64,000 nt of DNA from Runella rosea (GTDB lineage: Bacteria; Bacteroidota; Bacteroidia; Cytophagales; Spirosomataceae). Every line of letters starts with the position of its first letter. Within the stretch, counting starts at the first letter, position 1. The notes under the pieces are model-generated. The model saw only the letters and a list, made by a program, of their open reading frames with translations, searched no databases and was not told where the DNA came from. The stretch spans positions 1,302,001 through 1,366,000 of the forward strand of contig NZ_CP030850.1 in assembly GCF_003325355.1 (NCBI RefSeq), read 5' to 3'. The position numbers and the translations under genes were made by a program. Shown here one piece after another: positions 4,763-45,908 of the stretch.

Positions 4763-4867
4763 ATTTGTCCAAAAATAGTATGCCTGTTTCCCCTTGAGAG
4801 GCACCGATTCCACCCGACATCTCCCAATGAAATAATTTAAAAATCTCCATAAAGTTTAATTTATTCC

Positions 4868-4875
4868 TACTTTTG
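4868..4875 (+). promoter_or_regulatory. Bacteroidota-type -7 promoter element (TACTTTTG)
   Basis: TACTTTTG fits the TAnnTTTG consensus of the Bacteroidota housekeeping sigma exactly and lies 34 bases before the GTG of the ECF sigma gene. I see no convincing TTG at the -33 position. The reading is that the sigma gene is transcribed constitutively at a low level, as is usual for this class. Confidence 0.45.
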
Positions 4876-4909
4876 TTGAATTTTAGGTAAAATTCAACCC
4901 GTATTTTTT

Positions 4910-5503
4910 GTGGTAAACCCCTCACTCACTGACGAAACTCTCTGGCAGCGCCTCAAATTAGGCGATGAATTGGCTTTCTCTGTCTTGTTTGAGCGGTATT
5001 ATCGTTCATTGATTAACTACGGAAATTCGTTGAGTTCTTACCCCGAACGGGTGCAGGATTGCGTTCAGGATGTGTTTGTAAACCTTTGGCTTTACCGCAA
5101 CACCCTGAGCGACAATGTGGTAATCAAAGCCTACCTGCTCTCAAGCGTCAGGAAGCGCATTGCCCGTTTGCACGAGCGTGATACTATTTTTCGCCAAACT
5201 GCGCCGTTGGATGCTGTGCAATTTTCGTTGGATTTTTCCATTGAAGACCAACTCATTGCCGACGAAGAAACCTCGGCTCAGGTTTCTCAGCTCAATCGAC
5301 TGATTAACGCCTTACCTCCCCGGCAAAAAGAAGCGCTCTATCTCCGCTACCATCAGGGGCTAACGATTGAGCAAATCGGTGAGATGCTCGATATCAATCA
5401 CCAGTCGGTTTCCAATCTACTTCACCGTTGCATCCAACACCTCCGCAAAGAATGGAAGGGTGATTTAACGCTTCTTTTTCTGCTCTTTTCGAGAATACTT
5501 TAA
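4910..5503 (+). CDS. ECF RNA polymerase sigma factor (FecI-like), cassette 1
   Basis: 197 residues. Region 2 (AFSVLFERYYRSLINYG, CVQDVFVNLWLYRN) and region 4 (LPPRQKEALYLRYHQGLTIEQIGEMLDINHQSVSNLLHR) are both intact, giving a two-domain ECF factor of usual length. Translation appears to start at GTG 4910, since no nearby in-frame ATG retains region 2. The last eleven residues (TLLFLLFSRIL) form a short hydrophobic tail, a feature shared with the sigma factor at 14845. The adjacent FecR gene should encode its membrane anti-sigma partner, and the SusC at 6875 with an STN domain its outer-membrane signal source. The likely targets are the cassette's own susC/susD genes. Confidence 0.92.
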   Translation: MVNPSLTDETLWQRLKLGDELAFSVLFERYYRSLINYGNSLSSYPERVQDCVQDVFVNLWLYRNTLSDNVVIKAYLLSSVRKRIARLHERDTIFRQTAPLDAVQFSLDFSIEDQLIADEETSAQVSQLNRLINALPPRQKEALYLRYHQGLTIEQIGEMLDINHQSVSNLLHRCIQHLRKEWKGDLTLLFLLFSRIL

Positions 5504-5581
5504 ATTTTTCAAAAAAAAGTACCACGTTAGTGAGTATTGCCCCGCAAAGCTGTCCTCTCTGTGTCTGAAACTCTTTTTCAG

Positions 5582-6685
5582 ATGCAGCAACGCAACCATT
5601 ATAAAAAAATTGAAGATTTTCTGGCCGACGAATCGTTCCAAAAATGGGTTCGGGAAGGAAAAGAACGGGATAATTGGGAAGAATGGACGGTAGAAAACCC
5701 CCAACGGGCCAAACTCGTGGCCGAAGCTCGGTTGTGGGTATTAGCTACCCGGGTTCAGGAATCAACCCTTTCTTCATCCGAAGTTGCCGCTGCGTTACAG
5801 GCATCCCGTGACAAAATAAAATCCATTGAAAAGGAAACTGCTGTGCCTTCGATTCCGCTTTGGCGTCGTACGGGCTGGCGCAGTATTGCGGCGGTTTTGG
5901 TATTGGGACTCGCGTTGGGGTGGTTGCTTAAGCGCCAAACATTGACGCAGGATACACTTACCTACACCCAACTCATCAACCAAGATATCCAAGGACTGAT
6001 TGAACAGGCCAATAACACCCATAAACCGCAGTTGATTACCCTTTCTGACGGCAGCTCGGTACTGCTTCAGCCCAAAAGTAAGCTCAGCTATCCAAAAAGC
6101 TTTGAAGGCGACGAACGCAAAGTGTATTTGTCGGGCGAAGGCTTTTTTGAAATCAGCAAAAATCCGAAGAAGCCCTTTTTCGTTTTTGCCAACGAGATTG
6201 TCACCAAGGTCATCGGGACGAGTTTTCGGGTAAAAGCCTACACCGACCAACCCAACGTGGAAGTGGTGGTTAGAACGGGAAAAGTAAACGTCAGCTCCAA
6301 CCAAGCCATCACGCAGCTGAACCCTGAAACGGTGCAATTGTTGCCGAATCAGGGAGTTCGGTTTGCGCGGAAAAAGCTTACTTTCGAAAAAATAACGGAT
6401 TTAACCCTCGAAAAACCTGAGGCACAATCAGTTATCGCCATCGAACAACTGAGTTTTGAATTTTCAGATGTTCCCGTTGCCCAAATCTTGAAAACCATTG
6501 AGCAGGCGTATCTGGTAGAGATTGACTATCCGCAGGAGAAATTGAAAGACTGCTATCTTACAACTTCCCTCAGCGACCAACCTCTGCCCGAAAAACTCAA
6601 GATTATTTGCGAGAGTTTGGGCAACATGACCCGTTATGAAATGAACGGCAACCGAATCACGATTTTATCAGAAGGATGTAACTAA
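5582..6685 (+). CDS. FecR-family anti-sigma factor, cassette 1
   Basis: About 367 residues from ATG 5582. An in-frame TTG at 5537 would add 15 residues, but the ATG gives the usual N terminus (HYKKIEDFLADESFQKWV). A single membrane span lies near residues 100-120 (SIAAVLVLGLALGWLL). The periplasmic FecR domain follows (ITLSDGSSVLLQPKSKLSYPKSF, VYLSGEGFFEISKNPKKPFFV, VIGTSFRVKAY), then a C-terminal DUF4974 domain (LSFEFSDVPVAQILKTIEQ ... GNRITILSEGCN). In this family the cytoplasmic N terminus holds the ECF sigma factor and the periplasmic part senses the STN domain of a TonB-dependent receptor. It follows the sigma gene and precedes the leader hairpin and susC. Confidence 0.93.
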   Translation: MQQRNHYKKIEDFLADESFQKWVREGKERDNWEEWTVENPQRAKLVAEARLWVLATRVQESTLSSSEVAAALQASRDKIKSIEKETAVPSIPLWRRTGWRSIAAVLVLGLALGWLLKRQTLTQDTLTYTQLINQDIQGLIEQANNTHKPQLITLSDGSSVLLQPKSKLSYPKSFEGDERKVYLSGEGFFEISKNPKKPFFVFANEIVTKVIGTSFRVKAYTDQPNVEVVVRTGKVNVSSNQAITQLNPETVQLLPNQGVRFARKKLTFEKITDLTLEKPEAQSVIAIEQLSFEFSDVPVAQILKTIEQAYLVEIDYPQEKLKDCYLTTSLSDQPLPEKLKIICESLGNMTRYEMNGNRITILSEGCN

Positions 6686-6738
6686 CCCCGACATTTGCTG
6701 CCTATGACCTAAAAATACCCCTGCTTACCCACAAAAAA

Positions 6739-6767
6739 GCGTCGAAATGCTGCTACATATTCGACGC
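6739..6767 (+). promoter_or_regulatory. Leader hairpin with conserved loop upstream of susC (cassette 1)
   Basis: A perfect 8-bp stem (GCGTCGAA at 6739-6746 with TTCGACGC at 6760-6767) encloses the 13-base loop ATGCTGCTACATA. The equivalent position before the second susC (16636-16661) has a different stem sequence but almost the same loop. A second small hairpin (TGCCCT/AGGGCA) lies downstream near 6797-6815. This is a candidate cis-acting RNA or operator in the fecR-susC interval; no known RNA family was recognised. Confidence 0.5.
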
Positions 6768-6874
6768 CCGATGCTTCCCCTAACGTGTTCAGTTGACATG
6801 CCCTCTGCAAAGGGCACGGGGAGGATTTTGCCAATACCTCCGTAAAAAGTATTAACTAAAAACAAGTCAAAAGT

Positions 6875-9800
6875 ATGAAAAAAACATTGACCAACAAACG
6901 ATTACTATATCGAATTGTGCAAACGTCACTCCTACAACTCACCTTGGCCATCGTGTTTTCGAGCATTGCAATGGCCACCCCAGTAAAGGGTCAAAGTATG
7001 CTTGACCGAAAGGTAAGTGTGAATGTTTCGGATATAGCTTTGGAAAAAGTACTGCTCCAACTCGAAAAAGAGGCACAGGTGAAATTTTCCTTCAATTCGA
7101 GGGCCTTACAACTCGACCGCCCCGTAACGATCAACGCCTCCAACGAACCATTGTCGAGCGTACTAACCCGCCTTCTAAAACCTCTAAAAATCAAACACAT
7201 ACAGGTCAGCAATCGCATTGTTTTACGAAAAGACAACGCCTCCACAACGGGGCTTTGGGAAAATGACCTACCCACAAAATCGTTGGAATATCAACTGACC
7301 GAATCAATCGTGACGGGAACTGTAACCGACGAAAACGGGCAGGGATTGCCGGGCGTGAGCGTACTCATCAAAGGCACCCAACGCGGTACAACCACCGATG
7401 CCGTCGGGAAGTACAAACTGGCGCTGTCGGACAATAATGAGGTACTGGTTTTTTCATTTGTAGGCTACCTTTCCCAAGAAATAAAAATCGGTAGCCAGAC
7501 TACACTCAATGTATCGCTAAAACTCGACACCAAAGCGCTCGAAGAGGTGGTCGTCGTTGGCTACGGAGTTCAGCGAAAAAAAGACCTGACTGGAGCCGTG
7601 TCGACTATCACCAGCGATATGTTTAAGGAGCGTAAAGAAACCCAGGTGGCACAAGCCCTCCAAGGAGCTATGTCGGGTGTAATGGTGACCCGCAACGGGG
7701 CCAATGGTGCCATGGGCGGGGCGACCATCCGTATTCGGGGAGTCACCACGATTGGCAATTCTGACCCGTTGGTGATTGTGGATGGTGTGCCAGTGAGCGA
7801 TGTAAATCAGGTAAACCCCAACGACATCGAAAACTTATCGGTGCTCAAAGATGCGGCCTCGGCTTCAATATATGGCTCCCGGGCGGCTTCGGGTGTGATT
7901 TTGATTACCACCAAAAGAGCCAAAACCGACCAAGCCTCTATTCAATACAGCTACGAAAATGGATTTGATACGCCTACGCAGTTGCCCGATTATATGCGAT
8001 CGCAGCGCTATATGGAGCTTGTCAACGAACTCCGCTGGAACGATGCAGGCAACGGTGCCAATCGCTTCCCCACTTTTAGCCAAGATTTATTGACGGATTA
8101 TAACCAAAAACACCTTTCTGACCCCGACAAATACCCCGATACCGATTGGATGGCATTGACATTGAACAAAATCGCTCCCAGAGAAGCTCACAGTATCAGT
8201 GTCATTGGCGGGTCTAAGTTTGTAAAGTCCAACGCCTCAGTGCGTTATGAAAAAGTAGGTGGTTTTTACGACAACAAAAACTACAATCGGATTTTTGTTC
8301 GGTCAAACAACGATTTTACCATCAATAAACTGATTGGCGGTACGGTCGATTTTAACTTCAAAAGAACCAATGCCTTAGATCCTACGGCCAGTGACCCATT
8401 GTATCGTACTCGGATTTCTTCGCCTATTTATCCGGCAATCTGGGCTGATGGCCGCATTGCCGACGGAAAAGCGGGCGAAAACGTGTATGCTAAGGTTAAA
8501 TACGGCGGCACCGATCGCAACACTTACAATCAAGTGGGAGGTCGACTGGCGCTTGACATCAAACCCATTGAAGGCTTGAAACTTTCGGGAATCATCGCGC
8601 CGATTTTTGACTTTAACAACCAAAAACGCTTCAACAAAAAGGTAGATATTTATGCCGCCAACGACCCTAACCAATACCTTGTATCGCTAATTGGCGGCGG
8701 CCTTACCACCCGCTTAGACGAAAATCGCACGACCAATTACAGTATTACGACTCAGCTTTTGGCCAACTACCTCAAAACCGTTGGCAACCATGATTTTACC
8801 GCCTTAGCTGGCTACGAAAATTATTATTTCAAAGGCGAATCAATGGGCGCTTCTCGTGACCAGTACCTTTTTGATACATACCCTTACCTCAATCAAGGAC
8901 CAGCGGCTTTTAGGGATAATTTTGGCTCGGCTTTCGAAACGGCCTACCGTTCTTATTTTGGGCGTCTGACGTATAGCTATAAAGACAAATATTTGATTCA
9001 GACCAATGTCCGTCGTGATGGTTCATCACGCTTCAACGCCAATTATCGCTGGGGTACATTTCCTTCGGTTTCGGCGGGTTGGGTGATCAGCGAGGAGGAC
9101 TTTTTCAAAAGACAAAACCTTGTTTCTTTCCTCAAACTTCGGGCTTCTTGGGGGACGCTGGGCAACGAGCGCATCGGAAACTATCCGTCAGTTGGAATCA
9201 TGAACTTTAGTAATGCGCTGTTTTATCAAAACAACCTCGTAACCGCCCAACAAACCGCCGCCCAAGTGCAGTATGCCATTCAAGATATTTCTTGGGAAAA
9301 AACGGCATCGACGGATTTAGGGCTTGACGCGTATTTCTTAAAAAACCGCTTGCGCCTCACCGCCGATGTGTATTACAAAGAAACCAAAGACATGCTGCTG
9401 GCATTGCAGATTCCGATTTTTGTTGGATTCGAAAACCCCAACCAAAATACAGGCGTGATGACCACCAAAGGCATCGACCTTGACCTTGGCTGGACCGACA
9501 ACATCGGTAAGCTAAGGTATTCGGCATCCCTGAACCTCTCTCAATTTCAGTCGGTTATGGGCGATTTGGGTGGTACGGAGTTTATCGGCGACCGAATCAA
9601 GAGAAAAGGCAGTCAGTTTGACGAATGGTACGGCTACCGCTCTGAAGGGATTTACCAAACCCAAGAAGATGTCAATAACTCTCCCAAACTCAATACAAAC
9701 GTAAAAGTGGGCGACATGAAATACACCGACATCAGCGGCCCCAACGGCGTGCCCGACGGGAGAATCTCCCCCGAATACGACCGAATACTGCTCGGCAGTT

Positions 9801-10276
9801 CGCAGCCACAATGGATGTATGGCGGTAACTTTAAGTTGGATTACAACGGGTTTGATTTGGGGGTTACTTTTCAAGGCATCGGCTATCAAAACACATCGCT
9901 ACTTTCGTATACCGATTACAACGCCGAAAACTGGGGTGTATTTCCTGTGTATATGGACGGCAGCACTTGGAGTATGAACAATACTGCTGACCAAAATTTA
10001 GCGGCCAAATACCCAAGATTTACCGAAACCAACAAAGGACTGAACCGCGCAATGTCTGATTTTTGGTTGTTTAACGGAGGGTATTTTCGTCTAAAAAACA
10101 TCACTTTAGGCTACACGATTCCCCAGAATATTTCACGGAAAATCATGTCAAACAACATCCGTTTTTACATCAATGCCACCGATGTTTTCTCGCTCAACAA
10201 ATATCCTAAAGGTTGGGACCCCGAGGGAATGGGCATTGTGTCGACGGTTTTAGGAGGTTTTACGATTGGTTTTTAA
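6875..10276 (+). CDS. SusC/RagA TonB-dependent outer-membrane receptor with STN domain, cassette 1
   Basis: 1133 residues. After a signal sequence (cleavage near residues 35-40, ATPVKGQS) comes an STN domain (VSVNVSDIALEKVLLQLEKEAQVKFSF, about 47-125), which in this architecture contacts FecR. Next is a carboxypeptidase-regulatory-like domain (VTDENGQGLPGVSVLIKGT, about 150-220), then the plug (VVVGYGVQRKKDLTGAV, VDGVPVSDVNQVNPNDIENLSVLKDA, IYGSRAASGVILITTKR) and a 22-strand-type barrel ending in TIGF with an aromatic C terminus. It imports an oligomeric substrate, most likely an oligosaccharide, with the SusD encoded 19 bases downstream. The 188-base leader before it carries the hairpin at 6739. 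Confidence 0.96.
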   Translation: MKKTLTNKRLLYRIVQTSLLQLTLAIVFSSIAMATPVKGQSMLDRKVSVNVSDIALEKVLLQLEKEAQVKFSFNSRALQLDRPVTINASNEPLSSVLTRLLKPLKIKHIQVSNRIVLRKDNASTTGLWENDLPTKSLEYQLTESIVTGTVTDENGQGLPGVSVLIKGTQRGTTTDAVGKYKLALSDNNEVLVFSFVGYLSQEIKIGSQTTLNVSLKLDTKALEEVVVVGYGVQRKKDLTGAVSTITSDMFKERKETQVAQALQGAMSGVMVTRNGANGAMGGATIRIRGVTTIGNSDPLVIVDGVPVSDVNQVNPNDIENLSVLKDAASASIYGSRAASGVILITTKRAKTDQASIQYSYENGFDTPTQLPDYMRSQRYMELVNELRWNDAGNGANRFPTFSQDLLTDYNQKHLSDPDKYPDTDWMALTLNKIAPREAHSISVIGGSKFVKSNASVRYEKVGGFYDNKNYNRIFVRSNNDFTINKLIGGTVDFNFKRTNALDPTASDPLYRTRISSPIYPAIWADGRIADGKAGENVYAKVKYGGTDRNTYNQVGGRLALDIKPIEGLKLSGIIAPIFDFNNQKRFNKKVDIYAANDPNQYLVSLIGGGLTTRLDENRTTNYSITTQLLANYLKTVGNHDFTALAGYENYYFKGESMGASRDQYLFDTYPYLNQGPAAFRDNFGSAFETAYRSYFGRLTYSYKDKYLIQTNVRRDGSSRFNANYRWGTFPSVSAGWVISEEDFFKRQNLVSFLKLRASWGTLGNERIGNYPSVGIMNFSNALFYQNNLVTAQQTAAQVQYAIQDISWEKTASTDLGLDAYFLKNRLRLTADVYYKETKDMLLALQIPIFVGFENPNQNTGVMTTKGIDLDLGWTDNIGKLRYSASLNLSQFQSVMGDLGGTEFIGDRIKRKGSQFDEWYGYRSEGIYQTQEDVNNSPKLNTNVKVGDMKYTDISGPNGVPDGRISPEYDRILLGSSQPQWMYGGNFKLDYNGFDLGVTFQGIGYQNTSLLSYTDYNAENWGVFPVYMDGSTWSMNNTADQNLAAKYPRFTETNKGLNRAMSDFWLFNGGYFRLKNITLGYTIPQNISRKIMSNNIRFYINATDVFSLNKYPKGWDPEGMGIVSTVLGGFTIGF

Positions 10277-10295
10277 TATAATTCTCTGACTCACA

Positions 10296-12008
10296 ATGAA
10301 AAATAAGATATACAGCACAGCACTAAGCTTACTATTGTTGGCTTCCTGCCAAAATTCACTGGATCTATATCCGTTAGCCGAGCCTTCGGCCGAAAAGTGG
10401 TATTCTAACGAAACTGAGATTCAGTTGGCACTCAATGACCTCTATCGCATTGATTTTTGGCAATGGGATGAAGACGGAATGAGTATCAATTATCTTTCTG
10501 ATGATGGCTTTTATCGCCAAACCCTTACGCCCATCAAATCAGGAACGGTGACAAGTCAGTGGGCATTTTCGACCACCCTTTGGCGCAATTCTTACAAAGC
10601 CATTGCTCGTGCCAATAGAGCCATTGTGGCCCTGAACAGCGCGGTAACAAAAGCAAAAGTAAACCAAGCTAAATTGGATATTTACTTGGCTGAAGCTCGT
10701 TTTCATCGCGCAGCGCAGTATGCCAAGCTGGTCAATAAATTTGGCGATGTAGTTTATAGCGACGATGTTATCAGTATCGAAGACGCTTACACCAAAGGCC
10801 GTACCGACAAAAAAACGGTCATCACAAAAATCTACGAGGATTTCGATTTTGCCATTGCAAACTTACCGACCAGTTATGCCGCGTCGGCCGTGAAGCGCGC
10901 CACCAAAGGCGTAGCAATGGCCTTAAAAGCACGCTTTGCCCTCTACGAAAAAGATTTTAAAGTAGCCAGCGATGCCGCCAAAGCCTGCATGGACTTAAAC
11001 CAGTACACGCTGCACTCCGACTACGGCAATTTGTTTTTGCAGAGCACCAAAAACGCAAAAGAGATTATTTTTTCAATACCGCGTTCGTTGGAGTTGAAAG
11101 TAAGCACAGGCCCTACCTCCGACATCATCAGTCGCAACTCAGGGGGCTTTGCGGCAGCCAATCCTACTTGGGATTTGTTTTGTTCTTACCTCTGTACCGA
11201 CGGAAAAACCATTGATAAGTCGCCACTGTATGATCCTCGTAACCCCTTCAAAAATCGTGACCCGCGTTGCACTGCTACCATCGTGGAGTTTGGACAGCCG
11301 CATTTAGGCTTTATTTATGACCCCCACCCCAACGCTCTGCAAGTGACGCGCATCAGCACCAACACCAAAGTAACGAACAATGATAACCGAGCCAACGCGC
11401 AGTTTGCGTCTTTTAATGGGTTGATTTGGAAAAAAGGCGTTGACGATTCGTGGCTGCTCAATGGCCGTTTGATTGAGCCAGAGCAGATTATCGTCCGTTA
11501 TGCCGATGTATTGTTGATGTATGCCGAAGCTAAAATTGAACAAAATCAAATTGACAAATCGGTACTGGACGCCATCAACATGGTGCGGGCAAGGGCCTAC
11601 AAAGCCGCGCTTTCGGCCACTACTGCTTACCCCGCCATTACCACCACCAACCAAGCTGAGCTACGTCGTGAGTTACGCCTAGAACGCCGCATGGAATTGG
11701 CTTTCGAAGGGCTTCGCTACATGGACATTATACGCTGGGGCATTGCGGGCAAAGTGCTTAACCGACCAATTTACGGTATGCTCGACCCCGTTGATTTACG
11801 GTCTAAAGTAGTGGATAAAAATCTTTGGTTTTTTGCAGGCACTCCAAAAATTGACGAAGACGGTACACCCGACTTTAGTGAAATGGAAAAAACGGGTCTC
11901 ATCAAAAATCTAGTGCCTACTACTTGGAACGACCGCCAGTATTTGTGGCCAATTCCTACCTCCGAAATCCAAATCAATCCTAACATGAAGCAAAACGACG
12001 GGTATTAG
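10296..12008 (+). CDS. SusD/RagB nutrient-binding lipoprotein, cassette 1
   Basis: 570 residues. A lipoprotein signal peptide ends in LLLASC (lipobox cysteine at residue 18), so the protein is anchored at the cell surface as the lid over its SusC barrel. Typical RagB/SusD stretches are present: NSYKAIARANRAI, YLAEARFHRAAQYAKLVNKFGDV, YADVLLMYAEAKIEQ, LRRELRLERRMELAFEGLRYMDIIRWG and the C-terminal YLWPIPTSEIQINPNMKQNDGY. It follows susC by 19 bases and precedes the unknown secreted protein by 72 bases. Substrate cannot be read from sequence. Confidence 0.95.
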   Translation: MKNKIYSTALSLLLLASCQNSLDLYPLAEPSAEKWYSNETEIQLALNDLYRIDFWQWDEDGMSINYLSDDGFYRQTLTPIKSGTVTSQWAFSTTLWRNSYKAIARANRAIVALNSAVTKAKVNQAKLDIYLAEARFHRAAQYAKLVNKFGDVVYSDDVISIEDAYTKGRTDKKTVITKIYEDFDFAIANLPTSYAASAVKRATKGVAMALKARFALYEKDFKVASDAAKACMDLNQYTLHSDYGNLFLQSTKNAKEIIFSIPRSLELKVSTGPTSDIISRNSGGFAAANPTWDLFCSYLCTDGKTIDKSPLYDPRNPFKNRDPRCTATIVEFGQPHLGFIYDPHPNALQVTRISTNTKVTNNDNRANAQFASFNGLIWKKGVDDSWLLNGRLIEPEQIIVRYADVLLMYAEAKIEQNQIDKSVLDAINMVRARAYKAALSATTAYPAITTTNQAELRRELRLERRMELAFEGLRYMDIIRWGIAGKVLNRPIYGMLDPVDLRSKVVDKNLWFFAGTPKIDEDGTPDFSEMEKTGLIKNLVPTTWNDRQYLWPIPTSEIQINPNMKQNDGY

Positions 12009-12080
12009 TCTCAGTATTTACAACCCATATCCGTAAGTTAGAACTCAACATTTAACTAAATAAGGAATTCAAAGTTCACA

Positions 12081-14567
12081 ATGAATACATATAAAATCGC
12101 CTTTATTTGGGCAGGAATAGCAATGGGGCTACTGCTTATTGGCTCAACCACCCAAGCTCAACCCAAAACCTCCTACCCTCAATTCAGCGGCATTTATCCA
12201 CACCTCGCCTATTACAACAACGAAGGCGAGTGCGGAACAGGTGCGGTGGTGCCTTGGGCTGACCGCCTTTGGGTGATTACCTACGGGCCACATTTACCTT
12301 TTGGTTCATCAGATAAACTCTATGAGATCACGCCCAGTTTGCAGCGAACCATTCGGCCCGAAAGTACGGGAGGAACACCCGCCAACCGCATGATTCATAC
12401 CGAAAGCAATCAATTGTTTATCGGCCCCTACGCCATCAACGCGCAGCGCAACGTGCGTACCATTCCGTACACGCAAGCCCCTGGTCGCTACACGGGTTTG
12501 GCGCGGGGATTGACCGACCCGCAAAGCAAAATCCTGATTGCTACCATGGAAGAAGGTTTTTACGAAATGGACGTAAAAACCCTAAAAACCAAACAGCTGT
12601 ACCAAGACGGCAACGTCAAAGAAAAGAAGGGAGAGGATACTTCCAACAACCACAATGGACTACTGCTTCCGGGCGCACACGGCAAAGGCGTCTATTCTGG
12701 GCAGGGAGTAATGGTCTATTCCAACAACGGTGAATCAGGCCCACAGGCGCTGAAACAATTTGACATTGAAGCGGGCGTGTTGGCCGAATGGAACGGCAAA
12801 GATTGGAAGGTCGTGCGTCGTAATCAGTTTGTTGAAGTAACTGGACCGGGTGGCATTTATGGCAACAAAAACACCGACACCGACCCGATTTGGGCTACGG
12901 GCTGGGACCATAAATCGGTTTTATTAGGCGTACGTGATGGTGGGAAATGGTCTTTTTTCAGGCTCCCTAAAACCAGTCATAGCTACGACGGCGCCCACGG
13001 CTGGAACACCGAATGGCCCCGCATCCGCGACATCGGTACCGCCGACAAACCTGATTATCTAATGACCATGCACGGACTATTTTGGCGTTTCCCCCAAACG
13101 TTTACGTCCAAAAACACCGCCGGTATTCGTCCGCGCTCGTCTTACTTAAAAGTCATTGGTGACTTTGCACGCTGGAATAACCAACTGGTTTTTGGTTGCG
13201 ACGACTCGGCCCAAAAAGAGTTTTTGAACAAACGTAAGACCAAAGGAAACATCGAAGGCCCCGGACAATCCAACTCCAATCTTTGGTTCACTTCGTTCAA
13301 TACACCTGACGAATTAGGCCCCAACACCGCGCAGGGAGCCGTTTGGCTTGCCGAAAAAATTGAGGCCAATGCCGTTTCTGAACCTTTTCTTTTTGCGGGT
13401 TGGAACAAACGAATGGCATGGGTTCATAATGCAGGAAATCAGAACGTTAGCTTCAGTTTTGAAACAGATATCGACGGCAAAGGCAATTGGAAATCGTTGC
13501 GTACGGTAGAAACTCCAGCAGGTCAAAGCGTTGCCGTGACTTTTACCGCCAATGAAACTGGGGAATGGATTCGCGTAAAAAGCAACCTCGCCACCACCGC
13601 AACCGTCAATTTTAACTACAGCGATGCTTCCCGCTTTCAACCAACCGCCGACAAAATGTTCAACGGATTGACCAACATCCGTTCTGCAAATTACTCCGGA
13701 GGACTCATGTATGGCTTGGGCGACAATCGCCGGGCGATGGGCCTTTTGGCGGGTCAATTCTCCAACGGAAAATTCACCGAAAACGGCTACTACGAATTGG
13801 ACAGCGCCATGAATTTGGTCAAAAAGGAAGACCCAAAAACGGCGCAGTTTATCCGCGACAAGTTTGCCATTCCCAAAGAAGTTATTACGGTGGACGAAGC
13901 CTCCGTGCTTATCATTGACGACAGCGGCAGAAGATGGAGATTGCCCAAAGGAAATGAGGCATTTACCAACAAAACCCATAATGCTTCGCTCCGCATTTGC
14001 CGAGAAGTGGCCACCGAACGTGATTTATTGAACGCCCACGGGACATTCTACGAATTGCCCGCCGAAAATGCCGACGGTTTTGCTAAAATCAGGCCCGTGG
14101 CCTCGCACTCGCTCAGTGTACATGATTATGCGTCGTACCGTGGCTTATTGGTCATGACAGGCCTCGACAACCAAACGGCTGCCAATGAGCACATTATCGC
14201 CTCAAACGACGGAAAAGCCAAAGTATGGGCGGGTACCATCGACGACCTTTGGAAATTAGGCAAGCCAGTAGGTCAAGGCGGTCCGTGGAAAAACAGTCAA
14301 GTAACCGCTGACACTCCTTCGGATGCGTATTTGATTGGATTTTATGACAAAAAAAGCCTCAAACTTTCTCACAACGCCAAGCAAACAATTACGTTCACCA
14401 TTCAGGTAGAACCCATCGGTCACGGCCCTTGGATGAACTTTAAACAAGTGACAGTGAAGCCCGGCGAAACTTTTGAGTACACCTTCCCTGATGCTTTTCA
14501 AGCCCGGTGGGTACGATTTAAGGCCGATAAAAATTGTGAGGCTACCGCGTGGTTAACGTATCAATAA
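12081..14567 (+). CDS. Large secreted protein of unknown function, beta-propeller-like
   Basis: 828 residues with an N-terminal signal peptide (hydrophobic core about 5-25, ending TTQAQ). I do not recognise a named family. The first 300 residues look like propeller blades: alternating short strands with recurring patterns such as DRLWVITYGPHL, NQLFIGPYAIN, SKILIATMEEGFYEMD and DYLMTMHGLFWRFP. Two similar beta-sandwich-like stretches follow (near 445-515, VSFSFETDIDGKGNWKSLRTV ... GEWIRVKSN; and near 775-828, ITFTIQVEPIGHGPWMNFKQV ... ARWVRFKAD), apparently an internal repeat. Because it ends cassette 1 directly after susD and before a terminator, it is probably co-induced and may bind or process the imported substrate. 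Confidence 0.8.
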   Translation: MNTYKIAFIWAGIAMGLLLIGSTTQAQPKTSYPQFSGIYPHLAYYNNEGECGTGAVVPWADRLWVITYGPHLPFGSSDKLYEITPSLQRTIRPESTGGTPANRMIHTESNQLFIGPYAINAQRNVRTIPYTQAPGRYTGLARGLTDPQSKILIATMEEGFYEMDVKTLKTKQLYQDGNVKEKKGEDTSNNHNGLLLPGAHGKGVYSGQGVMVYSNNGESGPQALKQFDIEAGVLAEWNGKDWKVVRRNQFVEVTGPGGIYGNKNTDTDPIWATGWDHKSVLLGVRDGGKWSFFRLPKTSHSYDGAHGWNTEWPRIRDIGTADKPDYLMTMHGLFWRFPQTFTSKNTAGIRPRSSYLKVIGDFARWNNQLVFGCDDSAQKEFLNKRKTKGNIEGPGQSNSNLWFTSFNTPDELGPNTAQGAVWLAEKIEANAVSEPFLFAGWNKRMAWVHNAGNQNVSFSFETDIDGKGNWKSLRTVETPAGQSVAVTFTANETGEWIRVKSNLATTATVNFNYSDASRFQPTADKMFNGLTNIRSANYSGGLMYGLGDNRRAMGLLAGQFSNGKFTENGYYELDSAMNLVKKEDPKTAQFIRDKFAIPKEVITVDEASVLIIDDSGRRWRLPKGNEAFTNKTHNASLRICREVATERDLLNAHGTFYELPAENADGFAKIRPVASHSLSVHDYASYRGLLVMTGLDNQTAANEHIIASNDGKAKVWAGTIDDLWKLGKPVGQGGPWKNSQVTADTPSDAYLIGFYDKKSLKLSHNAKQTITFTIQVEPIGHGPWMNFKQVTVKPGETFEYTFPDAFQARWVRFKADKNCEATAWLTYQ

Positions 14568-14610
14568 TAGAAGTTTTTGAGTTAAAAAAAGATAGGTAAT
14601 GAACAGCATT

Positions 14611-14645
14611 AATCCCCGGCGGGCTTCCGTTGGGGATTTGTTTTT
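14611..14645 (+). terminator. Rho-independent terminator ending cassette 1
   Basis: Stem 14611-14622 pairs with 14627-14638 around the loop GCTT. It has an inner CGG/CCG clamp, two G-T wobbles and an outer TCCCC/GGGGA arm, followed by TTTGTTTTT. The core CGGGCTTCCG recurs in the terminator at 23301-23332. Confidence 0.85.
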
Positions 14646-14844
14646 ATGCGCCATCGCTCGTGTCTTACAACAGCCCTCCGTTCTATTTACCTAATGTTGA
14701 TGCTTTTTGTATTTTCTAAAAAAAATATTTCTGAATAAAGGGTATTTTTTCATAAACCTTGTACCTGTACTTATAACAGATTTATGACTCGTTGGAGAAT
14801 AAATAGTAATATGCCAAGCAGATAACGAAGTGTTTGTAAAAGAC

Positions 14845-15456
14845 ATGAACAGAACCTTCCAAAACAACACCGACGAAACAACCCTTTGGATTGCTTTTAA
14901 AAAAGGCGACGTGCGGGCGTTTGAGCAGTTGTATAACCGTTACTTCGAGGTACTGGCCAACTACGGCTATCGGTACTGCACCGACAAACAACAACTCGAA
15001 GACGCCATTCAAGACGTTTTTGTGGATGTATGGCGACGCCGACAGCATCTTGCCGACGTAGATAGCGTAAAATTTTACTTATTTCGGGCTTTACGCCATC
15101 AAGTAATCCGTAACACCCGCAACGACTTACTCGAAACGTCTGAAGACATCAACGATTTCCTTGATTTTTTGGTGGCATTTTCGTCGGAACAACAATCGAT
15201 TGAACAGGAAACTCATATCACCCAAACGCAGGCCGTTGCAAAGGCCATTGCCCAACTAAGTCAACGCCAGCAAGAAGCCATCAATCTGCGCTTTTATCAC
15301 GGCATGAGTCTCGATGAAATGACCCAACTTATGAGCCTCAGCAAGCAGTCGGTCAGCAATCTACTTTTTAAGGCATACAGTGTGTTACGCCTCACTATCA
15401 GAGGGATACCCCCACTTTTACTGCTGTTTTTACAAATATCCCACCTTATTAATTAG
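14845..15456 (+). CDS. ECF RNA polymerase sigma factor (FecI-like), cassette 2
   Basis: 203 residues from ATG 14845; an in-frame GTG at 14830 would add five residues. Region 2 (AFEQLYNRYFEVLANYGYRYC, DAIQDVFVDVWRRRQHL) and region 4 (LSQRQQEAINLRFYHGMSLDEMTQLMSLSKQSVSNLLFKAYSVL) are intact. Like the sigma factor of cassette 1 it ends in a hydrophobic run (PPLLLLFLQISHLIN). The FecR gene starts 23 bases downstream, and this pair should respond to the STN domain of the SusC at 16738. The 277-base interval before it contains the cassette 1 terminator and an AT-rich promoter region without a clear TAnnTTTG element close to the start. Confidence 0.92.
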   Translation: MNRTFQNNTDETTLWIAFKKGDVRAFEQLYNRYFEVLANYGYRYCTDKQQLEDAIQDVFVDVWRRRQHLADVDSVKFYLFRALRHQVIRNTRNDLLETSEDINDFLDFLVAFSSEQQSIEQETHITQTQAVAKAIAQLSQRQQEAINLRFYHGMSLDEMTQLMSLSKQSVSNLLFKAYSVLRLTIRGIPPLLLLFLQISHLIN

Positions 15457-15479
15457 TCACCTTTTAAGTTTTCGATCAC

Positions 15480-16568
15480 ATGAACTATGACCATTTTCAA
15501 CCCAACGACTTCATGCACAACGACTCGTTTGTGCGGTGGGTGTTGTTTCAGGAAGAAGACTCTTTTTGGCAGGAATTTCTGAAAAAATACCCTGCCAAAG
15601 CCGACGAAATTAAGCAGGCGCAGCAACTGATTTTAGGCGTCAAATCAGCCGAAGCGCAAAATACCCCCGCTCTCAATCAAAAAGCTGTTTGGGCCAGCAT
15701 TGAAGCCATTATTACCGAACCAGATGAGGAAGAAACTATTTTTGAGCGCAAGTTTTGGCAAACCAATGTCTTTAAGTACGCAGCAAGTTTGGCAGTGTTG
15801 GTCGGCTTAGCGTGGCTCTGGACTACGAGACAACCCGACCACCAAGTCAGTTATCAAGATTTGATAGCCGTTATCGAAGAAAAAAGCCCGCGTCAAGAAG
15901 TGGTAAACAACGGTCAAACCACCAAAAAAATACGCCTCGAAGACGGCACAATGGTACATTTGGAAAAGGGAAGCCGCCTGAGTTTTCCCGTGCATTTTGA
16001 AACCAAACGCCGCGAAGTAGTACTGAGCGGAGAAGCGTTTTTTGAAGTAGCCGAAAATCCTGCCAAACCGTTTTATGTCTACGCAAACGAACTGATTACT
16101 AAAGTATTGGGGACAAGTTTTAGAGTATATGCCTTAGAAAATGGCAAACAGGTAACGGTAAAAGTACAGACGGGCAGGGTGTCGGTATTTAAACAAAATC
16201 GCATAGACATCGCTGACCCCGAAACCAAAGGACTGCTCTTGTTACCCAACCAACAGGCCGTTTTCAACCGAACAAATGAACTATTGAACCGAAGTTTGGT
16301 AGAAGTACCTGTCCCCATTATCGCACAAAGCCCACTTGTAAAAAGACAATTTGAAGAAGTTCAAGTAGCCGAGGTGTTTGAAGAACTGGAAAAATTGTTT
16401 GGCGTTGAAATACGCTACAACGAAGACGCGCTTTCCGACTGTATTTTGACCACCACCATTAGTGATGATTCTCTGTACGACCAACTCGAAGTGATTTGTC
16501 AGACCATAGGCGCGGCTTACAAAGAGATTGATGCCCAGATTATTATCGAATCGACAGGCTGTAAGTAA
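15480..16568 (+). CDS. FecR-family anti-sigma factor, cassette 2
   Basis: 362 residues with the same layout as the cassette 1 protein: a cytoplasmic N-terminal part (FVRWVLFQEEDSFWQEFLKKYPAK), one membrane span near 100-116 (FKYAASLAVLVGLAWLW), a FecR domain (RLEDGTMVHLEKGSRLSFPVHF, VVLSGEAFFEVAENPAKPFYVY, VLGTSFRVYAL) and a C-terminal DUF4974 domain (FEEVQVAEVFEELEKLFGVEIRYNED ... IIIESTGCK). Both FecR proteins in the window end in a Gly-Cys plus one residue. It follows the sigma gene by 23 bases and lies upstream of the conserved leader hairpin and susC, so it is the expected anti-sigma relay of cassette 2. Confidence 0.93.
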   Translation: MNYDHFQPNDFMHNDSFVRWVLFQEEDSFWQEFLKKYPAKADEIKQAQQLILGVKSAEAQNTPALNQKAVWASIEAIITEPDEEETIFERKFWQTNVFKYAASLAVLVGLAWLWTTRQPDHQVSYQDLIAVIEEKSPRQEVVNNGQTTKKIRLEDGTMVHLEKGSRLSFPVHFETKRREVVLSGEAFFEVAENPAKPFYVYANELITKVLGTSFRVYALENGKQVTVKVQTGRVSVFKQNRIDIADPETKGLLLLPNQQAVFNRTNELLNRSLVEVPVPIIAQSPLVKRQFEEVQVAEVFEELEKLFGVEIRYNEDALSDCILTTTISDDSLYDQLEVICQTIGAAYKEIDAQIIIESTGCK

Positions 16569-16633
16569 ATCATTTGTCATTAAATCCAATAAATAGGTTA
16601 ACCAAAAATCCCTTAAACCTCAAAATCAAAAAA

Positions 16634-16663
16634 AGGGGAAAGATGCTGTAACACCTTTCCCTT
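16634..16663 (+). promoter_or_regulatory. Leader hairpin with conserved loop upstream of susC (cassette 2)
   Basis: GGGAAAG at 16636-16642 pairs with CTTTCCC at 16655-16661, extended by a G-T and an A-T pair, around the 12-base loop ATGCTGTAACAC. Compare ATGCTGCTACATA at 6747-6759 in the same fecR-susC position of cassette 1. A second, weaker hairpin (ACGAA/TTCGT) follows near 16682-16701. Loop conserved while the stem changes is the pattern expected for a structured RNA element. Confidence 0.5.
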
Positions 16664-16737
16664 GCTGAATCCGCAGGTGTGTACGAAGCACCGCGTTTTC
16701 GTGTCTTGCCTTTTCCAAAACAAAAACAATCAAAATT

Positions 16738-19700
16738 ATGTCAAATTTCTTTACCAGAAAAGAGATTTTCTGCCTTATGAAAATCACCCTCACCCCGTTA
16801 CTGCTCGTTTGTCTGCTGACTACCCTCAGTTTTGCGGAAAATACCTTTGGCCAAGAACGGCTTCAGGAAAAAATTACACTCAATCTGAAAAACGCGGATA
16901 TCAAAGCTGTGCTCAAAAGCATTGAGCGAAAAGCGAATGTTGTTTTTTCTTACCAAAAAGGTGTAATCGCCACCGACGAAAAGCTGACCATTGACATCAA
17001 AGACGAGACTTTAGAATCGGTATTGCAGCGCATTCTCACCCCTCGACAAATCAGCTACCAAGTCATCAAAGCCAACAAAATCGTTTTGGTGCGTCGTGTC
17101 TTGGGAAACGAACCCGAAGCATCTGAGCCCAAGCCCGTTCCAACTACCCTCGACATCCAATTGGCTCAAACGGTTATGGGGACCGTCACCGACGAAAACG
17201 GGGCGGGCTTGCCAGGTGTGAGTGTTATAGTGAAAGGAACGCAGAAAGGTACAACGACCGATGCCAGTGGAAAATATAAAATAGACGTACCTGACGAAAA
17301 AGCTATTTTGGTGTTTTCGTATGTAGGGTATTTATCTCAAGAACTGGTTGTTGGCAATCAAAGCCAAATCAACATTAGCCTCAAAACAGACATTAAGGCA
17401 CTGAATGAAGTAGTAGTAGTAGGTTACGGAACTGTCAAAAAAAGCGACTTGACTGGTTCAGTCGCACAGGTAAAATCTAAAGAATTAAATGCCTTTCCGA
17501 CCGCTAACGTATTACAGTCCTTATCTGGACGGGCGGCAGGTGTGCAGGTTACCCAAAATAACGGCTCACCTGGGGGCGGAGTAAGTGTACGCATCAGAGG
17601 CACGAACTCAATTCAGGGAAGCAACGAACCTCTTTATGTAGTAGATGGATTTCCAACATCTGGGAGCAATCCAACGGTACTTAACAATGTGGATATTGAA
17701 AGCATAGAAATTCTGAAAGATGCCTCTGCAACAGCCATTTACGGCTCACGAGGTGCTAATGGAGTAGTGTTGATTACTACCAAACGAGGTAAAGCAGGAG
17801 AAACCAATGTAGATTTTGAGACAAGCTATAGTTCACAAACACTCCGCAGAAAACTGGACTTGATGAATGCGCGCGAGTATGCCACCTTCTACAATAAACA
17901 AGCTGCCAACGACGGCATTCGCCCCTATTTCACACAGACTCAAATCGATTCCTTTGGCGAGGGTTTTGATTGGCAAGACTTTGTGTTTCAGAAAGCTCCC
18001 ATGAAAACCATGTCACTCAACATCAGTGGTGGAAACGAAAAAACCCAGTTTTCGGTGTCGGGAAGTGCTTTTGGGCAGGAGGGTATCATCCGAGAAAGTA
18101 ATTACAATCGCTATTCGCTCCGAACCAACATCAATCATATCATCAGCAAAAAATTCACCTTCAATCTAGCCAGTACCCTGACTCGGATTATGACCCAAGC
18201 CCAAAACAGTCAGGGGGGCAACCGAGGCGGGTCGCTGATTTCGGCGGCGGTGTCTTCTCCTCCTATCCTTTCTCCTTACAATGATGATGGTACTTACCGC
18301 ATTTTTGGCACGGCCTATTCCTTTATCAGTGCCCTACTCGTAAACCCCATCAATCCTCTCAACGAGCAAAGTAACCAAACTAAAGGAAACAGGATATTGA
18401 CCAATGCAGCTTTTATTTATAATCCAATCCCCGAATTGACCATCAAAGTGTCGGGTGGTATCGAAAACATGGACGACCGTACCGATTCTTACACCACCAA
18501 CAATTTCATCAATTCGCAAGGCAGTGCAGGAATAAGTACGAGTCAGTTTACCAGTTTTTTGAGTGAGAATACCGTCAGTTATCTCAAAACCCTCCAACAA
18601 AAACACAATATTTCGGCAGTAGTTGGTTTTACTTATCAAGATTTCCTGAGTACTTCTTTGGGAGGCAATGGAGTGGGTTTTCTAAGTAATACAAGTCAAA
18701 CCTACGACTTGGGTGCAGCCAACACACCAGGCATCCCAAGTTCTAGTTATTCCCAATCCAAGCTTTTGTCTTATTTGGGGCGGCTCAATTATTCGTATGA
18801 CAGTAAGTACTTAGCCACCATGAGCTTTCGGGTAGATGGCTCTTCCAAGTACAGCGAAGGCAACAAATGGGGGTATTTCCCGTCGGCAGCGGTGGCATGG
18901 CGTATTTCGAACGAAGAATTTTTGAAAAACAATACCTTCATCTCTGATCTCAAACTACGCGCAAGCTGGGGACTGACGGGTAGCCAAGCCATCGGCCCTT
19001 ATGCTACGCTCAACCAACTTTTTTCGGGAAAAACCGTTTTTGATGATGCTCTTTTCACTACTTATGCTCCCGGTACGGTGCTCCCCGGAAATTTGAAATG
19101 GGAAACTACTGAACAAAAAGACATTGGCCTCGACGTCGGTATCCTCAACAACCGCTTCTTAATTACGGCGGATTATTACATCAAAAATACCCGAGATTTA
19201 CTCAATACGGTTCAGTTGCCCTCTTCTCTGGGTTTCACAAGTACCATTCAAAACATCGGTGAAATCCAAAACAAAGGATTTGAGTTAGGACTCAACGCCA
19301 ATGTTTTGACGGGCGCATTGAAGTGGCACATCAATACCAACATTTCTTTTAACCGCAACAAAATCCTCAAACTTTACGGTGGGCAAGATATTTTGGGTGG
19401 CTTTGTAGATATTTCTGCCATCACAGATAATCGTAACATCCTTCGTGAAGGTCAGCCTTTGGGGCGTTTTTGGGGATACATCGAAGATGGCTACGACGAC
19501 AAAGGCAAAATCAGATACAAGGATATCAACGGTGACGGTAGTATCACGGTGTTAGATAAAACCTACATCGGCAACCCCAACCCTAATTTTATTTATGGTA
19601 TCACTTCTAACTGGTCGTTCCGAAATATCGAATTGAGTATCTTCTTACAAGGTACCCAAGGCAATGACATCTTTAATACGAGTTCGATCAACAACACCGT

Positions 19701-20082
19701 TGATTTTGGCTATGGGCTCAACATGCCGCGCGAAGTGTATTTCAATCACTGGACGCCCGCTACGCCCAACGCCAAATATCCTATTGTGAGTAATACCACT
19801 CGTACCAATGTCTCTAATCGTTTTGTAGAAGACGGTTCTTACTTGCGCCTTAAAAACATCCAAATTGCTTATAACCTCCCTCTTCAAAATTGGGGTGTAA
19901 AATGGATGCGTTCGGCACAGCTTTATGCCAGTGCTCAAAACTTCCTTACACTCACCAAATACTCTTGGTGGGACCCCGAAGTAAACTCAAATGGTGGAGC
20001 CAACTCCACCGCTCAAGGTTTTGACCACAACAGTTACCCTACCTCTAAAGCTATGACAGCGGGTGTGAGGGTTGGTTTTTGA
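16738..20082 (+). CDS. SusC/RagA TonB-dependent outer-membrane receptor with STN domain, cassette 2
   Basis: 1114 residues. Start could be ATG 16738 or ATG 16777; the second gives a more compact signal peptide (MKITLTPLLLVCLLTTLSFA). The STN domain (ITLNLKNADIKAVLKSIERKANVVFSY, about 47-125) implies signalling to FecR. The carboxypeptidase-like domain (VTDENGAGLPGVSVIVKGT), plug (VVVGYGTVKKSDLTGSVAQV, VDGFPTSGSNPTVLNNVDIESIEILKDA, IYGSRGANGVVLITTKRG) and barrel follow, ending VRVGF. It differs clearly from the cassette 1 SusC in the barrel, so the two probably import different substrates. The coupled susD start at 20126 lies 43 bases downstream. Confidence 0.96.
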   Translation: MSNFFTRKEIFCLMKITLTPLLLVCLLTTLSFAENTFGQERLQEKITLNLKNADIKAVLKSIERKANVVFSYQKGVIATDEKLTIDIKDETLESVLQRILTPRQISYQVIKANKIVLVRRVLGNEPEASEPKPVPTTLDIQLAQTVMGTVTDENGAGLPGVSVIVKGTQKGTTTDASGKYKIDVPDEKAILVFSYVGYLSQELVVGNQSQINISLKTDIKALNEVVVVGYGTVKKSDLTGSVAQVKSKELNAFPTANVLQSLSGRAAGVQVTQNNGSPGGGVSVRIRGTNSIQGSNEPLYVVDGFPTSGSNPTVLNNVDIESIEILKDASATAIYGSRGANGVVLITTKRGKAGETNVDFETSYSSQTLRRKLDLMNAREYATFYNKQAANDGIRPYFTQTQIDSFGEGFDWQDFVFQKAPMKTMSLNISGGNEKTQFSVSGSAFGQEGIIRESNYNRYSLRTNINHIISKKFTFNLASTLTRIMTQAQNSQGGNRGGSLISAAVSSPPILSPYNDDGTYRIFGTAYSFISALLVNPINPLNEQSNQTKGNRILTNAAFIYNPIPELTIKVSGGIENMDDRTDSYTTNNFINSQGSAGISTSQFTSFLSENTVSYLKTLQQKHNISAVVGFTYQDFLSTSLGGNGVGFLSNTSQTYDLGAANTPGIPSSSYSQSKLLSYLGRLNYSYDSKYLATMSFRVDGSSKYSEGNKWGYFPSAAVAWRISNEEFLKNNTFISDLKLRASWGLTGSQAIGPYATLNQLFSGKTVFDDALFTTYAPGTVLPGNLKWETTEQKDIGLDVGILNNRFLITADYYIKNTRDLLNTVQLPSSLGFTSTIQNIGEIQNKGFELGLNANVLTGALKWHINTNISFNRNKILKLYGGQDILGGFVDISAITDNRNILREGQPLGRFWGYIEDGYDDKGKIRYKDINGDGSITVLDKTYIGNPNPNFIYGITSNWSFRNIELSIFLQGTQGNDIFNTSSINNTVDFGYGLNMPREVYFNHWTPATPNAKYPIVSNTTRTNVSNRFVEDGSYLRLKNIQIAYNLPLQNWGVKWMRSAQLYASAQNFLTLTKYSWWDPEVNSNGGANSTAQGFDHNSYPTSKAMTAGVRVGF

Positions 20083-20125
20083 GAATAGACCCTACTTCAT
20101 ATTTCATCCTAACAAGATATTCAAA

Positions 20126-21592
20126 ATGAAAAAAATAGATTTTGTTTTCCCGAAAATATCCACCTTGTTTCTATCGTTGGCCTGCGTATTATCTTCTTGC
20201 GAAAGCATTTTAAAAGAAGAACCAAAATCGCTCGCTACTGAAACCTTCTACAATACTGCCGCTGAGGTAGAAGCGGCTGTCAATGCCATTTATACACCGC
20301 TACGCAGCAGCAACACCAGTGGCATGGGCGTGTATATCGCTGTTTTAGAAGCCCACATCGACTATGCGTATGGCCGTGGCAGTTATGCAGTTTTGAACAA
20401 TTTTCAAGGGCTCGACAACGTGAACATTAGCCGCACGGCTGGAGCATGGGAAGGTTTTTATCTCAGTATTCGAAATGCTAATTTGGTCATAAAAAATGCA
20501 CCCAACGGAAAGTCTATTTCCAAGGCGAACATTGACAAATACATCGCGGAAGCAAAATTTTTGAGAGCGTTCAATTATTTCCATTTGGTCAGGAATTGGG
20601 GAGGAATCCCTATCAGAACCGAGGCTAACATGACAGAAATCAATGCAAAACGCAACTCCGTAGCCGAAGTCTATAACCTTATTTTGGCAGATTTGAAAGT
20701 GGCTGAAGCTGGCCTTCCCGATCAAATATCTCAATCGGGTCGCCCCTCCAAATGGGCCGCCAAAACGCTACTCGCTGACGTATATTTAGAACTTAAACGT
20801 TACGCCGAGGCCCGAGATAAAGCCGAGGAAGTGATGCTATCTAAGAAATTTTCGCTGGTAGCAGTCCAAACATCCGAAGACTTTCAGAAGATTTTTGGCC
20901 CAACCGTTGTCACCACTTCCGAAGAAGTATTTTACCTCAAATATTCTCGCCAATCAGGGCAGGGAAATCTTTGGCCTTGGCTCACAAATCATCCCAGTAC
21001 GCGACTTCACGGCGGAGGTGGAGTATATGGGCATCACAGCGATGTCACCAACCCTGTTTATAAAAACTGGGACGACAAAGACCTCCGAAAAGGCCTTTGG
21101 TATGCTTGGAACATCGGTTTAGGCGCTACATCGATTTTGTCAAAAAAATTCATCGACCCTGACGCAATCGGTGGCTCAGGTGCAGGCAACGACGCGCCTT
21201 GGTATCGCTACGCCGACGTTTTGCTCATCTATGCCGAAGCCGCCAGTCAAGCCGCCAACGGGCCTACGACCGCCGCCTTAGAAGCCCTCAATCAAGTACA
21301 CCGCCGCGCTTATGGCTTGGCTCCGACCAGCCCTTCTGCGATTGATTTCAAGTTGACAGACTACAATACCCCCTCCTTTTTAGACTTGATTATCAAAGAA
21401 CGAGGCTATGAGTTTCAGTACGAAGGCAAACGATGGTTAGAACTTAAACGCACCGGCAAAGCGAAACAAATCATCTTGGCCTCCAAAAGCAAGACCATTG
21501 CCGACAAAGCTTATTTGTGGCCCATTGCAGTATCAGAACTTGGCTACAATACCGCCATTGACGCTGTCAAAGACCAAAACCCTGGCTATTAA
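20126..21592 (+). CDS. SusD/RagB nutrient-binding lipoprotein, cassette 2
   Basis: 488 residues from ATG 20126. This start is preferred over an in-frame GTG at 20072 that overlaps susC, because it gives a normal lipoprotein signal (LFLSLACVLSSC, lipobox Cys near residue 26). SusD hallmarks include WEGFYLSIRNANLVIKNAP, YIAEAKFLRAFNYFHLVRNWGGIP, RYADVLLIYAEAASQ, IIKERGYEFQYEGKRWLELKRTG and the terminal YLWPIAVSELGYNTAIDAVKDQNPGY. It forms the surface lid of the preceding SusC. Confidence 0.94.
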   Translation: MKKIDFVFPKISTLFLSLACVLSSCESILKEEPKSLATETFYNTAAEVEAAVNAIYTPLRSSNTSGMGVYIAVLEAHIDYAYGRGSYAVLNNFQGLDNVNISRTAGAWEGFYLSIRNANLVIKNAPNGKSISKANIDKYIAEAKFLRAFNYFHLVRNWGGIPIRTEANMTEINAKRNSVAEVYNLILADLKVAEAGLPDQISQSGRPSKWAAKTLLADVYLELKRYAEARDKAEEVMLSKKFSLVAVQTSEDFQKIFGPTVVTTSEEVFYLKYSRQSGQGNLWPWLTNHPSTRLHGGGGVYGHHSDVTNPVYKNWDDKDLRKGLWYAWNIGLGATSILSKKFIDPDAIGGSGAGNDAPWYRYADVLLIYAEAASQAANGPTTAALEALNQVHRRAYGLAPTSPSAIDFKLTDYNTPSFLDLIIKERGYEFQYEGKRWLELKRTGKAKQIILASKSKTIADKAYLWPIAVSELGYNTAIDAVKDQNPGY

Positions 21593-42758: not shown

Positions 42759-42838
42759 TTACGTAAATTTCAAGTAGTTACGAAAGTTAAAAAACGAATA
42801 TTGGGGATATTTTATCAGTGCTTGTAACGAATTTTAGC

Positions 42839-45814: not shown

Positions 45815-45908
45815 TGGTATATACGAGGTTATTGGAGAATGCAAGATAAAATTTCGGCTTGGTTTCTGCCGTTTTTTTTGAGTAAAATTGTCAAAAAAAG
45901 AAAACGCT

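Follow-up and report, generated by a model that had tools for sequence, protein, structure and literature searches.

This analysis concerns two short intervals in Runella rosea, each separating an anti-sigma gene, fecR, from a susC gene. Both lie in a 64,000-nucleotide (nt) stretch of the genome (contig NZ_CP030850.1, positions 1,302,001 to 1,366,000), referred to here as the window, and coordinates are counted from its first letter. Each interval belongs to a unit, or cassette, in which an extracytoplasmic function (ECF) sigma factor gene, fecR and an STN-type susC follow one another. Between fecR and susC lies a hairpin, which very probably marks the end of an antisense RNA that begins at the susC start codon. 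The genes are as follows.

4910..5503, plus strand: ECF sigma factor gene of cassette 1
5537..6685, plus strand: fecR (anti-sigma) of cassette 1
6875..10276, plus strand: STN-type susC of cassette 1, target of predicted antisense RNA 1
14830..15456, plus strand: ECF sigma factor gene of cassette 2
15480..16568, plus strand: fecR (anti-sigma) of cassette 2
16738..20082, plus strand: STN-type susC of cassette 2, target of predicted antisense RNA 2

An earlier note on this DNA had described a hairpin in each interval, with perfectly pairing stems. The positions and sequences are as it gave them, and both hairpins form on folding. Their plus-strand letters are listed here.

6739-6746, 6747-6759 and 6760-6767: hairpin 1, GCGTCGAA, ATGCTGCTACATA and TTCGACGC
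16636-16642, 16643-16654 and 16655-16661: hairpin 2, GGGAAAG, ATGCTGTAACAC and CTTTCCC

Further hairpins appear downstream of the main one in the folds of both intervals, in agreement with the smaller second hairpin of the note. Taken whole, each interval is only slightly more stable than shuffled sequence (z of -1.11 for cassette 1 and -2.04 for cassette 2). What the note overlooked is a run of A residues directly 5' of each hairpin on the plus strand, A6 in cassette 1 and A7 in cassette 2. No U tract follows either hairpin on the plus strand of the window. Because the A tracts adjoin the hairpins on their 5' side, both loci read on the minus strand as a hairpin followed by a U tract. Judged by its letters, each is an intrinsic terminator on the strand opposite fecR-susC, with U6 to U7 after the stem.

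6738..6768, minus strand: terminator hairpin of predicted antisense RNA 1, -15.4 kcal/mol, upper stem RUG-N6-CAY
6733..6738, minus strand: U tract (plus-strand A6) of predicted antisense RNA 1
16636..16661, minus strand: terminator hairpin of predicted antisense RNA 2, -15.0 kcal/mol
16628..16634, minus strand: U tract (plus-strand A7) of predicted antisense RNA 2

Is this arrangement peculiar to two loci? Other fecR loci were picked by the FecR_C family, and 102 were counted in 13 Runella genomes. The genome of the window contributes 14 of its 15 loci, L022 having been removed (no downstream stop, an open frame of 927 amino acids). The other 88, from among the matches listed, comprise 28 from the search and 60 chosen by hand, with orthologues of the window cassettes first. 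Grouping into 29 non-redundant clusters reduces the sampling bias from hand-picked loci but does not abolish it. A terminator was called strong if its stem had at least 6 pairs, its energy was -12 kcal/mol or lower, at least 6 T were found in 8 and it lay no more than 220 nt from the fecR stop. By this rule a strong terminator stands just past the fecR stop on the minus strand at 71 of the 102 loci, and on the plus strand at one. Eight of the 14 loci in the window's own genome have the minus-strand form (L009, L010, L011, L014, L015, L019, L020 and L021). Energies in the 29 cluster representatives range from -12.9 to -22.7 kcal/mol. Terminator-like hairpins on the plus strand before susC were found at a minority of loci, and the idea of a sense attenuator was set aside.

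The earlier note considered the hairpin loop to be conserved. As a literal string it is nothing special: ATGCTGNNACA occurs 43 times in the genome, compared with 38 times for its reversed control, and was rejected as a motif. Since the string is not enriched, the upper stem was taken as the motif in its place, and in this form the claim stands. An upper stem RTG-N5-8-CAY (RUG...CAY in RNA, with a loop of 5-8 nt) is present in 24 of the 29 fecR-susC clusters, the enrichment in other such intervals that the note had looked for. It is found in 3 of 128 background strong terminator-like hairpins (464 kb of genome), and two of those three are the window elements. The likeness between the two window hairpins exceeds chance, and what had been seen as a conserved loop is, on sequence grounds, the upper stem of a terminator.

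The second part of the signature lies at the susC start codon, where the plus strand of the window reads CAAAAGTATG in one cassette and CAAAATTATG in the other. The earlier note had passed over these letters too. On the minus strand they match a sigma-A -7 box, TANNTTTG, for which the plus-strand pattern is CAAANNTA, seen as CAAANNTATG or CAAANNTAATG. Bacteroides sigma-A signals are TAnnTTTG at -7 and TTTG near -33, and in Flavobacterium johnsoniae the -7 signal alone of the two was found (excerpts of PMC7366714). The window has the exact -7 box at both loci and the -33 TTTG in cassette 1 only.

6868..6875, minus strand: -7 box TACTTTTG of predicted antisense promoter 1, overlapping the A of the susC ATG (6875)
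6895..6898, minus strand: possible -33 element TTTG of predicted antisense promoter 1, 19-nt spacer, a weak motif
16731..16738, minus strand: -7 box TAATTTTG of predicted antisense promoter 2, overlapping the A of the susC ATG (16738)

The exact -7 box lies 30-125 nt past the hairpin in 21 of the 29 clusters; 200 shuffle runs gave a mean of 2.78 and a maximum of 10. The usual distance is 64-101 nt, and the box is fused with the next gene's start codon, adjoining the ATG in every one of the 21 clusters. Its plus-strand version is found in none of the 29. Seven of the remaining eight clusters have a one-mismatch box at the ATG, a form with a background of 22 in 244 genes. The two central positions of the exact box are variable, in keeping with the sigma-A consensus; the other six are set by the search pattern. 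Among 244 control gene starts the exact fused box was found at four, and two of these are the window susC genes. It is absent from all 21 susC-type genes without fecR (from the 30 best of 120 family matches), two of which have a nearby minus-strand terminator. The third susC of the window (48184-51264, minus strand) has no STN match, as the earlier note had said of its domains, and its start region lacks the CAAANNTA box. Across the genus, terminator and exact fused box occur together at 50 loci, the terminator alone at 21, the box alone at 2 and neither at 29.

Together these signals would delimit two RNAs, with the 5' end set 6 nt past the -7 box.

6733..6862, minus strand: predicted antisense RNA 1 (about 130 nt; start placed about 6 nt beyond the -7 box)
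16628..16724, minus strand: predicted antisense RNA 2 (about 97 nt; start placed likewise)

Predicted lengths run from 68 to 132 nt (median 121, 21 clusters), and many of the predicted RNAs fold into three parts: a U-rich 5' portion, a central domain containing an inner hairpin, and the terminator. The body folds with a mean z of -1.93 against shuffles as antisense and -1.15 as sense (n=21). An alignment of cassette-1 orthologues (12 sequences, including L211 and L212 of another order) has 29 consensus pairs, five of which changed on both sides, one of the five in the terminator. The RNA body in these orthologues has conserved hairpins with covariation. In this respect the earlier note was right, since it had seen a structured RNA with compensatory stem change in the sigma/FecR/SusC units and had pointed to covariation in an alignment as a check. 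Among the nine cassette-2 sequences aligned there is less variation, with two-sided change at 1 of 31 pairs. One-sided changes in the cassette-1 alignment were not used as evidence of strand, because any one-sided change that leaves the pair intact is necessarily G.U.

In the predicted antisense bodies of L020, L083, L092 and L094, inspection by eye shows a repeated GACAAAA(A)C stretch with a run of C after it. In the sense reading it is a G run followed by TTTTGTC, about 30-50 nt upstream of the susC ATG. It may act as an attenuator in sense, contribute to the antisense fold, or be a site on the DNA.

On which strand does the element pair? Counted outward from the tip and weighted by cluster, non-Watson-Crick positions of the stems on the minus-strand reading are G.T at 22.8 and A.C at 4.6. 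YUNR loops are found on the minus strand in 10 of 24, compared with 5.2 in shuffles (1.75% of shuffles reach 10) and 3 of 24 on the sense side, a modest effect that is not relied upon. The strand matters because the earlier note had taken the hairpin for a leader RNA of the fecR-susC transcript, controlling susC translation or processing. Such a leader would include the same hairpin if transcription enters upstream, as in Bacteroides thetaiotaomicron, where the excerpts of PMC11501099 place a 5' end of polysaccharide utilization locus (PUL) 24 at 291 nt upstream of susC, within the anti-sigma gene. The tip is no help here, for RUG...CAY is its own reverse complement and is silent on strand. 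However, the lack of a sense-side U tract in the window, the solitary plus-strand terminator among the genus loci and the excess of G.T over A.C on the minus strand all argue against a sense leader, and it would leave the minus-strand promoter box at the susC ATG, and the rarity of that box elsewhere, unexplained. A sense-strand role is highly unlikely.

Perhaps the terminator is plain insulation, blocking stray antisense transcription from susC into fecR with no regulatory RNA involved. The hairpin energies are ordinary for terminators and would suit this. What does not fit is that a promoter box fused to the ATG sits at a narrow distance in 21 of the 29 clusters, that the apical stem is conserved, unlike that of other terminators, and that the body of the cassette-1 orthologues has conserved, covarying hairpins. 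Insulation by itself is accordingly given very little probability. The slimmest chance of all attaches to CAAANNTATG being a translation-initiation signal of these susC genes beside an unrelated terminator, for which A-rich start regions and the one-mismatch forms at control gene starts speak, and against which stand the near absence of the exact form from control genes and its absence from the 21 other susC-type genes, the variation at the two middle positions in line with the sigma-A consensus, and the co-occurrence of box and terminator.

The explanation favoured here is that each interval very probably encodes a DonS-type cis-antisense RNA of about 97-130 nt, with its promoter at the susC ATG and the hairpin as its terminator, and that this RNA would hold susC low. 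In the proposed scheme, housekeeping sigma-A RNA polymerase would start at the -7 box fused with the susC start codon, run back through the susC leader and stop at the hairpin. In the default state, leaky susC expression would be kept low in two ways: antisense transcription would interfere head-on with transcription of the leader, and the RNA would pair with the leader. Activation of the SusC-FecR-ECF sigma relay would bring strong sense transcription driven by the ECF sigma, which would override the antisense brake. If Runella resembles B. thetaiotaomicron PUL24, the sense leader would span the whole antisense region, with two promoters facing each other.

The earlier note knew of no described family that matches. 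One does, the DonS family of antisense RNAs from PULs. DonS itself, from Bacteroides fragilis, reportedly goes back to Cao et al. in 2016. In the available excerpts of PMC7366714 it represents a family of 78-128 nt cis-antisense RNAs that are divergent to susC homologues and lower them, and ten RNAs in DonS-like orientation are given for B. thetaiotaomicron. The excerpts of PMC10994844 count 32 PUL antisense RNAs in that species, describe repression as validated for one PUL antisense RNA, in B. fragilis, and call for functional work on the class; the mechanism of DonS is described as unknown in those of PMC11697453. Like the DonS family, the Runella elements, as read from DNA signals, face the 5' part of a susC homologue from the opposite strand. 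The window predictions of about 130 and 97 nt, with the start site inferred, compare with 78-128 nt for the family. B. fragilis, the host of DonS, has the same layout of terminator and start-codon box in its fecR-susC intervals. The likeness is one of layout and of the family description as excerpted, and not of DonS's own letters; the excerpted descriptions of DonS make no mention of a start-codon-fused box or an RUG-N6-CAY upper stem. Judged by sequence features, then, this is a known kind of RNA whose promoter is set into the start codon. Many antisense RNAs are reported in a Flavobacterium, with no link to fecR-susC units mentioned in the excerpts of PMC9723704, and literature searches found no report on such antisense RNAs in Runella.

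The comparison with Rfam suggested by the earlier note gave no window matches at gathering score; hits such as aspS, PyrR and Qrr scored far below their cut-offs and were rejected. Plasmid copy-number antisense RNAs are also short, terminator-ended and opposite a leader. The resemblance is one of layout and of the YUNR loops already mentioned, together with one sub-threshold Rfam match, and not of sequence.

A number of observations weigh against a DonS-type RNA at these loci. The effect is not universal: 31 of the 102 genus loci have no strong minus-strand terminator, and 21 of the 71 terminator elements lack the exact fused box. A consensus scan of 4500-21000 found no excess of terminator-like hairpins (20, compared with 22.6 in shuffles), listing the hairpin of cassette 2 and missing that of cassette 1. 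What carries the argument is the locus-to-locus comparison, not this generic scan. Enrichment of the -33 element is slight (CAA in 13 of 21 clusters, compared with 4.55 in shuffles). Without weighting, G.T and A.C stand at just 58 and 24 (65 elements), and the hairpin finder folded the minus strand, which biases toward G.U there. Fourteen of the 24 A.C positions come from one cluster, in which a bulge shifts the register of the reading. The G.T excess favours minus-strand pairing, short of proof. Beyond the window, the next gene was called susC by position and start, not by an individual Pfam test. The B. thetaiotaomicron PUL antisense RNAs, mapped experimentally where those of Runella are predicted from DNA signals alone, likewise lie opposite susC in PULs, and in the excerpts of PMC10994844 some correlate with it negatively and others positively. 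Outside the genus the terminator is found at 25 of 96 fecR loci and both parts at 9, and none of 18 more distant loci of the same phylum has the terminator.

The first of these points may have to do with gene spacing. In 19 of the 31 terminator-less loci the gap from fecR to the next frame is 61 nt or less, and in the other 12 it is at least 79 nt. Tight and spaced fecR-susC layouts thus exist, and the element accompanies the spaced one. At L012, L016, L017, L018 and L023 in the window's own genome, fecR and the next gene overlap or lie within 20 nt of each other, with no strong minus-strand terminator between. Such closely set pairs may not depend on an antisense RNA for their regulation.

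Beyond Runella, 40 of the 96 sampled loci were hand-picked, some for an STN match in a downstream susC. The terminator occurs at 3 of 10 loci from the same family, 6 of 38 from the same order and 16 of 30 from the same class. The conserved tip is present at 13 of the 25 loci with a minus-strand terminator (3 of 3 in the same family, 1 of 6 in other families of the order and 9 of 16 in other orders of the class). B. fragilis Q1F2 has 24 fecR loci, with the terminator at 11 and the fused box at 12. Both parts occur at 10 loci, the terminator only at 1, the box only at 2 and neither at 11; a plus-strand terminator is found at 1 of the 24. Three of the 11 minus-strand terminators have the tip, and an identical tip, AUGUUGGCGCAU, is shared by Runella L095 and B. 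fragilis L360. A 12-base tip, ATGTTGGCGCAT, is common to these two loci and to L205 and L216 of two other Bacteroidota.

Elsewhere in the window, an 828-amino-acid open reading frame with no Pfam match at 0.001 (12081-14567) lies past the first susC-susD pair, and a strong plus-strand terminator comes after it, at 14611-14638 in the consensus scan. The large genes beside the STN-less susC (39429-45940, minus strand) encode an FG-GAP/ASPIC-UnbV protein and a DUF5107-TPR protein.

What if the shared tip has a function of its own? It is possible, though doubtful, that there is a class-wide off-switch for transducer-type (FecR-linked) SusC, in which a promoter in the start codon is combined with a tip (RUG-N6-7-CAY) that a shared RNA-binding protein would recognize or that would pair loop to loop with the sense leader. 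The signature itself points to such RNAs in Runella and also in further orders of its class. A terminator paired with a -7 box at the susC ATG would allow PUL antisense RNAs to be predicted from DNA alone and would suggest their start sites. If the off-switch is real, many FecR-linked receptors would each be under a separate antisense brake, all sharing a common handle, and the ATG of the gene would be part of its repressor's promoter.

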